A program made the position numbers and the translations under genes. Positions 6,522 through 9,949 of a stretch of 64,000 nt of DNA are shown here, in pieces (the first letter of the stretch is position 1; each line of letters opens with the position of its first letter). The notes under the pieces were generated by a model, which saw only the letters and a list, made by a program, of their open reading frames with translations, ran no database searches and had not been told where the DNA came from. Source of the stretch: Rhizobium sp. G21 (GTDB taxonomy: Bacteria; Pseudomonadota; Alphaproteobacteria; Rhizobiales; Rhizobiaceae); NCBI RefSeq assembly GCF_014158035.1, contig NZ_JACFXW010000001.1, forward strand, positions 744,001 through 808,000. The letters are read 5' to 3'.

Positions 6522-7505
6522 ATGGACCTTCTTCTCGTCGACTTTCTCGGCAAGCCCGTATGGATGTGGGCTGTCTTCATCATTCTCGTGCTCGGGCTTC
6601 TTATTCTCGACCTGGGCGTTCTGCACAAGGGCTCTCGTGAGATCGGCATCCGCGAGAGCCTTCTGATGTCCGCCTTCTACATCACGATCGGCGTCGCCTT
6701 CGGCGGCTGGATCTGGTTTCAGTCGGGCCAGCAGCCGGCTCTCGAATATCTGACCGGCTTCGTGGTCGAAAAATCGCTGGCGATGGACAACATCTTCATC
6801 ATCGCGATGATCTTCTCCTATTTCGCCATTCCGCGGGAATATCAGCACAGGGTTCTGCTCTGGGGCATTCTCGGCGTGATCGTGCTGCGCGGCATCATGA
6901 TTGCGGCGGGCGCGGCGATCGTCGAGAACTTCCACTGGGTGCTCTATCTCTTCGCGGCCTTCCTGGTCATCACCGGCATCAGAATGCTGTTCTCGTCCGG
7001 TCATGACGAGAACGATATCGGCAACAATCCGGCGCTGAAATTCCTGCGCAAACATTTGCCGGTGTCCGACAAGCTGCATGGCGAAAGCTTCATCGTCCGT
7101 GAAACCGACCCCAAGACCGGCAAGCTGAAAACGCTGATCACGCCGCTCTTCCTGGCGCTGATCATGGTGGAGCTGGCCGACCTCGTCTTCGCCGTCGACT
7201 CGATCCCGGCAATCTTCGCGATCACCACCGACCCCTATATCGTCTACACCTCGAACATCTTCGCGATCCTCGGTCTGCGCGCCCTCTACTTCGCGCTCGC
7301 CGCGCTCATCCACCGCTTCGCCTATCTGAAATACGCTCTGGCTGCGGTGCTGGTGTTCGTGGGCTCCAAGATCTTCATCGCCGACATGTTCGGCCTCGCC
7401 AAGATCCCGCCCGCCGTCTCGCTCAGCGTCACCATCGCCATCCTGGCGGCCGGCATCCTCGGCTCGCTCTGGGCGACGCGAAACGAAGTGACGCATAAGG
7501 CGTAA
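6522..7505 (+). CDS. TerC family integral membrane protein (Alx-like)
   Basis: Polytopic inner-membrane protein of 327 residues with about 9 hydrophobic segments. It matches the TerC/Alx family: VVEKSLAMDN near residue 85 and MVELADLVFAVDSIPAIFAI near residues 225-244 carry the conserved intramembrane acidic residues. Members are linked to tellurite resistance, manganese export and metal loading of exported proteins. A strong terminator follows (7532-7566). No neighbouring ter genes are present, so a manganese or general metal role is more likely than tellurite resistance; that is inference. Confidence 0.9.
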   Translation: MDLLLVDFLGKPVWMWAVFIILVLGLLILDLGVLHKGSREIGIRESLLMSAFYITIGVAFGGWIWFQSGQQPALEYLTGFVVEKSLAMDNIFIIAMIFSYFAIPREYQHRVLLWGILGVIVLRGIMIAAGAAIVENFHWVLYLFAAFLVITGIRMLFSSGHDENDIGNNPALKFLRKHLPVSDKLHGESFIVRETDPKTGKLKTLITPLFLALIMVELADLVFAVDSIPAIFAITTDPYIVYTSNIFAILGLRALYFALAALIHRFAYLKYALAAVLVFVGSKIFIADMFGLAKIPPAVSLSVTIAILAAGILGSLWATRNEVTHKA

Positions 7506-7531
7506 CGGTTACGGACGCATTTGTATCGAAA

Positions 7532-7566
7532 GGCTGTCGCTGCAAAGCGGCGGCCTTTTGCGTTTT
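7532..7566 (+). terminator. rho-independent terminator of the TerC gene
   Basis: Ten-base stem (7532-7541 with 7546-7555, two G-U pairs) closed by a GCAA tetraloop, followed by TTTTGCGTTTT. It starts 26 bases after the stop codon. Confidence 0.85.
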
Positions 7567-7835
7567 AGAGCGTGTCTCAGCTTTTCAGCCTCATTCTGTT
7601 GGTCCAAACCGGGGTGATCCGCTAGGAGAAGCGCGCAGGTCGTAGCTGATGCTACGGCCAAGCCCTCCGACGACGCGGGCGCCCGGTTTCGACCAACCCT
7701 TCGGGCCGGATGAATTTCGGCCACTATCTTCGGCTTTTGGCTCCGCCGTACATCTGGGTATGCCCTCGCCAAAAGCCTTGATCCTGACCGAAATTGATCC
7801 GGCAAATGAGTCTGAAAAGCTGAGACACGCTCTAA
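7565..7835. repeat. 271-bp palindromic MITE/RIME-like element
   Basis: Bounded by inverted repeats of 31 bases that match at 30 positions (7565-7595 and 7805-7835). Inside, a first hairpin arm pairs 7599-7613 with 7682-7696 (14 of 15) and contains a small stem at 7641-7646/7651-7656. A second arm pairs 7705-7720 with 7788-7803 (15 of 16), with an inner 10-base stem at 7732-7741/7768-7777. No transposase is present; the open frames across it are by-products. TA occurs at both ends, compatible with a TA target duplication. The right end supplies the stop codon of the mazF-like gene. Copy number in the genome is unknown from one window. Confidence 0.75.
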
Positions 7836-8158
7836 TCGCCGAATCCGAAAAACAGAGCGAGGCAGCGCTCCACGTCAATCATCGTTTTTCTGTCTGCCTT
7901 ACCGATAGGCTGGCCGACTTTCTCACGGCGCGTCGTCATCGCTTTGTCGATCATCACTTGTGACATGGTCCTCAAGCCGGTTTGCGGCCCTGGCTCCAAC
8001 GTGACGCGGAGAAACGATGCAGGGGTCAGCGTGCTCGTGATGAGCAGAACAGTGACCGTCTCAGTGTTTCTGAGGTTGTCCGACTGGATGACCAATGCCG
8101 GACGTGGTTTTCCAAAGTCACCATTGATCGCAACAGTAACGATATCCCCACGGTTCAT
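7832..8158 (-). CDS. MazF/PemK-type toxin (endoribonuclease)
   Basis: Toxin half of a type II toxin-antitoxin pair, 108 residues. The start MNRGDIVTVAI and the stretch GKPRPALVIQSD are hallmarks of the PemK/MazF fold, which cleaves single-stranded RNA. The central VLLITSTLTP matches the conserved core strand. Its ATG overlaps the antitoxin stop by four bases, the usual coupling. The TAG stop (7832-7834) lies inside the terminal repeat of the palindromic element downstream, so the last residues may differ from the ancestral protein. It is tailored to an antitoxin resembling the DUF3018 MazE-like family. Confidence 0.88.
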   Translation of the reverse strand: MNRGDIVTVAINGDFGKPRPALVIQSDNLRNTETVTVLLITSTLTPASFLRVTLEPGPQTGLRTMSQVMIDKAMTTRREKVGQPIGKADRKTMIDVERCLALFFGFGD

Positions 8159-8376
8159 CTGTCGTCATCAACCAGATCTGCTGCAGCCGCGTCGAGAAAA
8201 TCGAGCAGGTCTGCATCCTGGCTATCAGCCTGATTAACAAGTTTTACCTGTCTATCACACTCCTCGAGGAAGCCCGGAGCTCGGCTGTCGGCAATCCAAA
8301 TCTGGATCGGCTTGAAACCTGACGCCCTCAGGTTTTCCCGCCGCTTTCTGACGCGCTCATTCACGGAAATGCCCAT
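8155..8376 (-). CDS. MazE-like antitoxin (DUF3018 type)
   Basis: Short protein of 73 residues directly upstream of, and overlapping by four bases, the MazF-like toxin. The N-terminal NERVRKRRENLRASGFKPIQ and the following IWIADSRAPGF resemble the DUF3018 antitoxin family. The C terminus is acidic (DLLDFLDAAAADLVDDD), as expected for the toxin-wrapping tail. TAGGAG lies about 6 bases before the ATG at 8376. A nested dyad immediately upstream (8383-8418) is a likely site for autorepression. Confidence 0.8.
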   Translation of the reverse strand: MGISVNERVRKRRENLRASGFKPIQIWIADSRAPGFLEECDRQVKLVNQADSQDADLLDFLDAAAADLVDDDR

Positions 8377-8382
8377 GACGTG

Positions 8383-8418
8383 CTCCTACCCTACGTTACA
8401 TGTAACTTAAGATAGGAG
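8383..8418. promoter_or_regulatory. nested dyad, probable operator of the toxin-antitoxin pair
   Basis: A perfect 12-base palindrome GTTACATGTAAC (8395-8406) is framed by a second inverted pair CTCCTA (8383-8388) and TAGGAG (8413-8418). It sits 7 bases upstream of the antitoxin start, where MazE/MazF-type complexes usually bind to repress their own promoter. The inner copy of TAGGAG also serves as the ribosome-binding site. Confidence 0.55.
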
Positions 8419-8437
8419 TCCGCGATCGTCAATCCAG

Positions 8438-9949
8438 TCACTCCGCCGCCGACCGTGTCTCCGTTTCCGGCTGATCGGGATTGCCCGGCGCCGTTTCCGC
8501 ATCGAGATCCGGAAAGGCGGCGATGCGGGCGCCGAGGCGGTCCTGATGCAGCACGATCAGTCCCTGTTCCTCGAAATAGGAGAGTAGACGCCGGGCGCGG
8601 CGGGCGGAATGGGTGCCGTAGGCGCGCGCGATGGCCTGATCGGACGGACAGGGTTGGCTGGTGATGGCGGCGTTGGCGATCAGCAGGAACACGGCCTTCA
8701 GATCGTCGGTCACGCTGCGGGAGAGATCGAGCGCCTTTGCCCAGGTCTCGGTGGCGCGGGTCTCCTCGTCGGCGCCGGAGCGGATCACCGCGAGCCGTTG
8801 GCGAAATTCGGGCAGCGCCACAGTCGCCCCGGTCAGCCGGCGAATGCGGCAGCGGACGAGGAATTCCTGAAACAGTTCGGCGTCGGGACGGAAGGCGGAG
8901 TCACCCTGGCTCAGCACGTCTTCAAGCGCCGCCTGCACAAGTTGCTCACGCTCTTCCTCTGTCAGTTCGGCGCGCTTGGGCCTCGCCTCGCGCATCTCGA
9001 CCGGCTCGATGTCGCGCGCCTTGGAGAGTTCGGCGAGGATATCGGTGGAGGGACGCGGCGCCGGCTGCACATAGCGCGGGATCGACCGGGTCAGTTCCTG
9101 CGGATCGGGCGTCAGGATCAGATCGGCGGCGTCGATATTCGCTTCGGGCAGCGGCATCAGCTTGGGGCTGGAGGAGCGCGCCGAGGTCTCGACCTTGCCG
9201 ATCTCCACTTTCAGCGGCTTGCGACTGAGCGCGGGGCCGAGCGCGACGAAATTGCCGCGCGGCAGGTCGCGGAACATTTCCGCCTGCCGTCGCTCCAGCC
9301 CGAGCAGATCGGAGGCGCGCGCCATGTCGATGTCGAGGAAGGTGCGGCCCATCAAAAAGTTCGAGGCTTCTGCGGCGACGTTCTTGGCGAGCTTGGCCAG
9401 GCGCTGGGTGGCGATGACGCCGGCCAGTCCGCGCTTGCGGCCACGGCACATCAGATTGGTCATGGCGCCGAGCGAGAGACGGCGCACCTCGTCATTGACT
9501 TCGCCAGCGGCGGCGGGCGCGAACAGCTGAGCTTCGTCGACCACGACCAGCACCGGATACCAGAAATCACGGTCGGCGTCGAACATGCCGTTGAGGAAGA
9601 TAGCGGCGTTGCGCATCTGGTCTTCGGCGTCGAGGCCTTCGAGAGACAGGACGCAGGAGACGCGATGCTGGCGCACGCGGGCGGCAATGCCGAGCAGTTC
9701 GGCCTCGGTGCGGTCGCCCTCGATGGCGACATGGCCGTAACGATCGCCCAAAGTGACGAAATCGCCTTCGGGATCGATGATCACCTGCTGGACCCAGCCG
9801 GCGGATTGTTCGAGCAGTCTGCGCAACAGATGCGATTTTCCCGAACCGGAATTGCCCTGAACCAGAAGGCGGGTCGCCAGCAATTCCTCAAGGTCGAGCG
9901 TCGCGCGCGTGCCGCCCGCGCCGGTTCCCATGTCGATGCCTGCCGTCAT
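8438..9949 (-). CDS. HerA-like ATPase (DUF87) with C-terminal winged-helix-like region
   Basis: Predicted P-loop ATPase of the HerA/FtsK superfamily, 503 residues. Walker A is GNSGSGKS at residues 32-39 and Walker B is VLVVVDEAQLF near residue 140; GVIATQRLAKLAKN that follows matches the sensor region of the family. Residues beyond about 300 form a variable linker, and the last 100 or so residues look like a small helix-turn-helix region (AIARAYGTHSARRARRLLSYFEEQGL). HerA proteins often work with a NurA nuclease or in defence systems, but no nuclease gene is adjacent. Similar stand-alone genes are annotated simply as ATP-binding proteins in rhizobia. Confidence 0.8.
   Translation of the reverse strand: MTAGIDMGTGAGGTRATLDLEELLATRLLVQGNSGSGKSHLLRRLLEQSAGWVQQVIIDPEGDFVTLGDRYGHVAIEGDRTEAELLGIAARVRQHRVSCVLSLEGLDAEDQMRNAAIFLNGMFDADRDFWYPVLVVVDEAQLFAPAAAGEVNDEVRRLSLGAMTNLMCRGRKRGLAGVIATQRLAKLAKNVAAEASNFLMGRTFLDIDMARASDLLGLERRQAEMFRDLPRGNFVALGPALSRKPLKVEIGKVETSARSSSPKLMPLPEANIDAADLILTPDPQELTRSIPRYVQPAPRPSTDILAELSKARDIEPVEMREARPKRAELTEEEREQLVQAALEDVLSQGDSAFRPDAELFQEFLVRCRIRRLTGATVALPEFRQRLAVIRSGADEETRATETWAKALDLSRSVTDDLKAVFLLIANAAITSQPCPSDQAIARAYGTHSARRARRLLSYFEEQGLIVLHQDRLGARIAAFPDLDAETAPGNPDQPETETRSAAE

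Follow-up and report, generated by a model that had tools for sequence, protein, structure and literature searches.

A probable MITE family of the Rhizobiaceae with IS630-like ends, a covarying palindromic core and a tendency to enter stop codons

MITEs are usually viewed as deletion derivatives of one transposon that are expected to die with it. Among small bacterial repeats, the Correia or NEMIS elements of Neisseria resemble the family described here in being small and palindromic and in having a TA duplication; by description, host, size and core set them apart. In rhizobia, the RIMEs are said, in a 1995 abstract, to be intergenic and to consist of two large palindromes. Our family is likewise a rhizobial, intergenic repeat with two large palindromes; RIME1 and RIME2, however, measure 108–109 bp, and a RIME1-like repeat of pSymB has no match to our family. 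RIMEs are also mentioned in the accessible part of PMC2573895. The accessible text of PMC3049150 describes RUP of Streptococcus pneumoniae as a small, tightly folded repeat of 107 bp with ends like those of the resident IS630-Spn1, and proposes that it moves in trans. RUP and our family are alike in being small and tightly folded, in having ends that resemble a resident IS630 element's and in their proposed movement in trans, but ours is 270–276 bp long, occurs in 41 of 109 genera sampled rather than in pneumococcus, and has a conserved double-palindrome core on which several kinds of arm are found. MITEPye1 of Paracoccus yeei, also an alphaproteobacterial MITE, is preferentially intergenic, as our family mostly is, and has long stem-loops and IS-family-like ends; these ends are of the IS1182 family, however, there are 1–3 copies per chromosome, and end exchange goes unmentioned in the accessible parts of that paper (PMC11578231). 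A literature search on rhizobial repeats, MITEs and IS630, which covered titles and abstract beginnings and had subscription papers mostly and ISfinder wholly outside its scope, yielded no description of the family; in term searches, neither RIME nor palindrome occurs in the R. leguminosarum genome paper (PMC1557990), and no rhizobial term occurs in a MITE review (PMC10969869).

The window, a 64,000-nucleotide stretch of Rhizobium sp. G21 (genome G000; L and G numbers are our handles for loci and genomes), contains one complete copy (Table 1). We consider this element very probably a MITE, non-autonomous and, as its ends suggest, dependent for movement on Rhizobiaceae transposases of the IS630/Tc1-mariner family that act in trans. 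The architecture that the original prediction had described was confirmed: the 31-nt inverted repeat is 97% complementary, with one mismatch and 209 nt between its halves; TA stands at both edges, which we read as a target duplication by analogy with copies for which empty sites exist; no reading frame between the ends is of transposase size; and the predicted fold, which contains the two proposed inner pairs of long arms, is branched and almost wholly paired. Its energy of -155.4 kcal/mol for 271 nt (z = -13.6) was reached by none of 200 dinucleotide shuffles (-89.7 ± 4.8 kcal/mol).

Table 1. Features of the element and its neighbours, in window coordinates
Feature	Position	Strand	Basis or remark
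Whole element with flanking TA duplication	7566–7834	none	limits set by comparison with four other copies that have empty sites
Element body, GAGC...GCTC	7568–7832		limits set likewise
Left TA, presumed target duplication	7566–7567	none	by analogy with other copies' empty sites
Right TA, presumed target duplication	7833–7834	none	by analogy with other copies' empty sites
Left terminal inverted repeat, IS630-family-like	7565–7595	+	23/30 to an IS end in the same genome
Right terminal inverted repeat	7805–7835	-	22/30 to the same own-genome IS end
Left core palindrome with inner stem	about 7598–7697	+	fold and alignment
Right core palindrome with inner stem	about 7705–7803	+	fold and alignment; inside model R1
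TerC-family gene, upstream neighbour, convergent with the PemK/MazF-like gene	6522–7505	+	
PemK/MazF-like toxin gene, neighbour	7832–8158	-	PF02452, E 4.7e-21, profile positions 2–109 of 109
TAG stop of the PemK/MazF-like gene, TA duplication plus the element's outermost base	7832–7834	-	

Shortness, terminal inverted repeats and the lack of a transposase agree with a MITE. A single copy conserved at one place was the pattern that the original prediction had set against itself. Its proposed search of the genome and of relatives instead found dispersed copies in the own genome, in relatives and on plasmids. Besides the full copy, the five contigs of the own genome hold two partial ones, of 214 and 119 bp, and one solo 31-bp end, and 7 of 41 genomes, the own included, have matches: five full or near-full copies are listed for G002 and four for G004, at 91–96% identity, and 18 matching places in G003 at 69–74%. 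With an R. leguminosarum copy as the query, 176 of 72,556 plasmid records matched, at 340 places (Rhizobium 165 records, Sinorhizobium 9, Agrobacterium 1, Martelella 1). R1, a covariance model that represents the core's right half and was built from window positions 7692–7806 and their relatives, matched in 55 of 247 genomes of the Rhizobiaceae, representing 41 of 109 genera, where copy numbers are lower bounds because at most 14 candidates were scored per genome. A scan of 30 loci that required TA ends gave 21 rows, from which L202 and L203, mis-registered inside the element, were removed; the remaining 19 loci have elements of 270–276 bp in which 21–26 of 26 arm positions match. The matched part of the core is intergenic in all of the first eight annotated plasmid loci inspected (a ninth record is unannotated), and none of the rhizobial plasmid records examined annotates the repeat as a feature in its own right.

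Decayed or partial copies (L002, L003, L013, L017, L018) and rearranged ones also occur. For example, Rhizobium sp. FKL33 has a 126-bp derivative (L025:3677–3802) that keeps window-type arms but only a portion of the core and looks internally deleted; L104 (G003:C1:1201292–1201549) lacks the interior of its left palindrome and has additional hairpin-like sequence separating its two core palindromes; and in L011 (G003:C1:1427972 and 1429323), two members that differ in arms and cores stand about 1 kb apart. Short hairpins with the same arms and no core were not seen among the 50 G003 arm sites listed, of which the closest facing pair spans 184 bp.

What, then, does the element do to its target? 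The empty sites in relatives that the original prediction had suggested looking for exist at four other filled loci, L070 (empty in L107, L108), L067 (L111–L113), L073 (L234, L235) and L074 (L236); for the window copy no clean one was found. At L070, the filled sequence is cttcatc-TA-[element]-TA-gagagg, and the empty ones are cttcatt-TA-gagaga (L108) and cttcaat-TA-gagagg (L107); at L067, ccaaac-TA-[element]-TA-gagcgg faces ccaaacc-TA-aagcgg in L111, and L112 and L113 have a single TA with diverged left flanks. Two records stand apart: L106, a third relative of L070, lacks eight bases beside the site, and L233, a relative of L074, has TGA there, hence no TA. Otherwise, empty relatives have one TA at the site and filled sites two. 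The flanks of one G002 copy, for which an empty site was also sought, were not found in G000 or G004. Scored in 28 of 39 copies, the position just outside the TA is occupied on the left by C (19) or T (9), and on the right by G (16), A (10), C (1) or T (1). By this comparison, insertion is shown to take place at a TA, which is duplicated to give TA-[GAGC...GCTC]-TA, mostly in a YTAR (CTAG-like) context. IS630 duplicates TA according to the accessible part of PMC2170065, and a title in its reference list gives a CTAG preference; both properties of an IS630/Tc1-mariner element are seen here.

The TA chosen is often that of a stop codon. Among 71 element sides with sufficient flank, 23 are reached by an open frame of 100 codons or more, and in 18 of these 23 the element's terminal TAG is in frame (3 and 2 in the other frames); against an expectation of one third, the binomial value of 1.3e-5 is indicative only, since some frames are not annotated genes (e.g. 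left of L070) and the copies share descent. Two loci with empty relatives display this directly. A LacI-family gene has the same length, 1,080 bp, whether it ends ctcc-TAG, as in the empty L234 and L235, or ctcc-TA-[GAGCC...], as in the filled L073. The gene of an alpha/beta hydrolase measures 912 bp in all three records, with the stop TGA in L233, TAA in L236 and TAG in L074. The PemK/MazF-like gene in the window likewise ends at the element's TAG, an example with no empty relative. The comparison shows the element to be situated often at a stop codon's TA, which the element's outermost base, G, completes to TAG, so that the length of the gene product is unchanged. Right after the LacI stop (L234, L235, locus about 593–636), the empty site in L234 starts TAGAGCATGATG..., a short palindrome-like stretch, and TA-G ends of this kind may also serve other short palindromes of rhizobia.

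Candidate partners are widespread: at E <= 0.001, 131 of the 247 Rhizobiaceae genomes have a transposase with the DDE_3 domain (PF13358), and the two DDE_3 proteins tested were assigned to the IS630 family by NCBIfam. TA-bounded, partly complementary ends were found 1,027–1,074 bp apart in 47 of 72 transposase loci, leaving 88 IS ends after removal of three duplicate loci. Eighty of the 88 start TAGAGC, TAAAGC or TACAGC, a uniformity that is partly built in because the scan looked for particular TA-starts; in an earlier scan requiring only TA, the top pair included a TANAGC end at 23 of 42 loci. Outside the TA, 62 of the IS ends have C, 25 have T and 1 has A. One such IS lies in the own genome (G000:C2, 377 kb); its transposase is in two overlapping frames and may or may not be active. 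One of its ends, TAAAACGTGTCGCATCTATTCTGCCTCATA, equals the window arm TAGAGCGTGTCTCAGCTTTTCAGCCTCATT at 23 of 30 positions, and at 14 of 18 for positions 13–30, a level not reached in 200 shuffled sets. Over these same positions, 55 distinct arms have a mean best match of 11.98 to the 88 IS ends, where shuffled ends reach 9.46; arms of the window type, 11 in number, score 12–14 of 18, and 36 of the 55 pass the 5% shuffle level whereas 19 miss it, with the caveat that the arms of related copies are not independent. The IS630-family IS of Rhizobiaceae resemble the elements in their TANAGC ends, in their TA flanks, in having C or T ahead of the TA and in the sequence of their 30-bp ends, but the IS carry a transposase within their 1,027–1,074 bp and have imperfect repeats at their two ends, whereas the elements lack one and have nearly perfect arms. 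Of the transposase with the same ends that the original prediction had suggested looking for, a counterpart with similar ends lies in the own genome, and one with identical ends did not appear: with 55 arms set against 88 IS ends, no transposase-bearing element had exactly these arms, and the best matches were 13–23 of 30. Ends of the IS630 kind appear common to the family and these IS, which suggests mobilisation in trans. A transposon-sized pair of window-type ends was also sought; extra end-like sites occur in G000, G002, G003 and G004, with no convincing pair, and L064 has one inward-facing pair 1.8 kb apart, with 2 and 4 mismatches of 16.

Between the arms, the core has been kept. Our alignment A1 holds 36 of the 39 full copies found by the scan, leaving out L020, where an end is deleted, L022, with one end decayed, and L026, which has an insertion inside it, as well as 8 partial or decayed and 4 contig-edge matches; 34 of its rows are 270–276 bp long, the window row is 269 and L075 is 253. 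The consensus has 87 pairs and 97.4% of cells pair, a measure that favours structure as the consensus was derived from A1 itself. Pairs changed on both sides number 45, against 28.1 ± 1.9 in column shuffles and 11–17 with partners slid. The outer stem is hypervariable, with 23 of 31 pairs changed on both sides, and is still 96.7% paired. The right-palindrome model also matches the left palindrome on the opposite strand (e.g. 50 bits in L195), and the window element aligns with its own reverse complement at about 63%, for which reasons the core is probably an old inverted duplication. The comparison shows the core, about 210 bp, to be a conserved and, by its alignment, covarying pair of palindromes that appears to last while the ends turn over. 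Such a core is unusual for a MITE and counts against that reading.

Arms and core do not always travel together. Over 630 copy pairs, core and arm identity correlate at 0.65, and the exceptions can be found inside one genome: within G003, L041 and L034 are 98.1% identical in core but 53% in arms, the corresponding values for L032 and L011:1499 are 97.1% and 60%, and, conversely, L035, L036 and L038 agree with L011:2826 at 100% of variable arm columns with a core identity of 77%. Comparison of the copies thereby shows that arms and cores are reassorted, even inside one genome. Arms differ strongly between copies, yet they are self-complementary within a copy; because a copy's two arms nearly always match, either both would be replaced jointly or one would be copied from the other. 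The route may be copying templated by the hairpin, or selection through a transposase that requires its two ends to be similar.

How might such a family persist? We envisage that an IS630 transposase would bind the matched arms, that the element would be excised at GAGC/GCTC and inserted at a TA, and that it could outlive the turnover of insertion sequences by gaining arms suited to a new transposase. The core might be kept because its fold aids movement, because it keeps the arms paired and matched, or because it renders the insert harmless. In its broadest form, the proposal would be of a mobile parasite whose heritable unit is the structured core, with arms re-copied from whichever IS630-family transposon is active, so that it outlives transposases across a bacterial family, and with a TA-G end that allows seamless insertion into stop codons as harmless sites. 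This broader picture is tentative, and we put it at somewhat below an even chance.

Could the core instead have been selected as RNA, a regulator, terminator or mRNA-protecting stem that is merely dispersed? The very strong covariation of paired positions is what such an RNA would display, and copies do sit at the 3' ends of genes. A strand preference seemed to point the same way, in that 46 of 54 copies have a core that folds better as its reverse complement, and on that strand the consensus fold comes to -123.3 against -100.2, a comparison with no shuffle control. Measured against dinucleotide shuffles, however, the reverse strand exceeded expectation in stability in only 13 of 25 cores; the excess averaged 1.9 kcal/mol and was above 13 kcal/mol in two copies (L197 and L200), and we rejected an RNA function read from strand-specific wobble pairs. 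Rfam, searched with window positions 7000–8500 at E up to 1, gave a sole, chance-level match at 7053–7142, outside the element, and no match over the element at four other loci. The sole match at those loci is to the rhizobial sRNA Atu_C9 (L200:1874–2028, 68.1 bits, gathering 40), about 230 bp from the family copy. Insertion that duplicates TA is a signature of transposition, and a structured RNA is in our judgement improbable.

Two other kinds of mobile repeat have to be weighed. The original prediction had offered a MITE or a RIME-type mosaic; the MITE half stands on the dispersed copies, TA-duplication empty sites, missing transposase and IS630-like ends, whereas the RIME half is unsupported in a comparison that used a RIME1-like pSymB repeat rather than an authentic RIME. 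That the family belongs to, or derives from, the RIME or ABC mosaic elements of rhizobia would suit its two large palindromes, intergenic position and Rhizobiaceae host, all as described for RIME, and a 118-bp, two-palindrome repeat of pSymB likewise starts TAGAGC. Against this, the family is 270–276 bp long rather than 108–109 bp, and 54 copies compared with 200 kb of S. meliloti pSymB at 1e-3 gave one weak match (71% over 76 columns, L229:24152–24225), off the most-repeated repeats; no similarity was found to the repeats with most self-hits in those 200 kb, one of them RIME1-like. We regard a RIME origin as decidedly improbable. The pSymB repeat itself (S. meliloti 1021, L229:30046–30163), with its TAGAGC start and GATCTAA end, is possibly IS630-related too. 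A palindromic, intergenic, hairpin-rich element also invites comparison with REP/BIME-like repeats moved as single-stranded hairpins by a RAYT (tyrosine, IS200/IS605-like) transposase. RAYT/IS605-type movement is not known to leave a target duplication; the TA duplication present here and the long IS630-like terminal inverted repeats fit a DDE element, and we give the RAYT reading very little credence indeed.

At the window locus, the surroundings vary as well. G002 and G004 match the window's left flank collinearly as far as base 7565 and then run on into sequence unrelated to the window's right flank; in G007 and G008, TerC is followed within about 65–80 bp by a homologue of the window gene at 8438–9949, a spacing that implies the joint absence of the element and the PemK/MazF-like gene there. 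In none of these four genomes was a clean empty site for the window copy found. From these differences, the interval downstream of TerC is a variable site with the element at one edge, and the element may have arrived either alone or together with the toxin gene. The corresponding interval after TerC is about 0.56 and 1.4 kb in G001 and G005, and, more generally, the stretch between TerC and the 8438–9949 gene (window 7505–8475; L186–L193) varies among genomes of the same genus.

Three features make the family unusual: the reassortment of arms and core, a covarying core that lasts, and entry into stop codons. The ends that face the transposase turn over and the core lasts, both inside one genome and across genera, which makes several questions testable; how does a non-autonomous element change hosts, what holds arms 200 bp apart complementary, and does the fold aid transposition? 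The family also accounts for a repeat that lacks its own annotation in the rhizobial plasmid records examined, and its stop-codon rule would be a simple explanation for how such elements can build up harmlessly beside genes.
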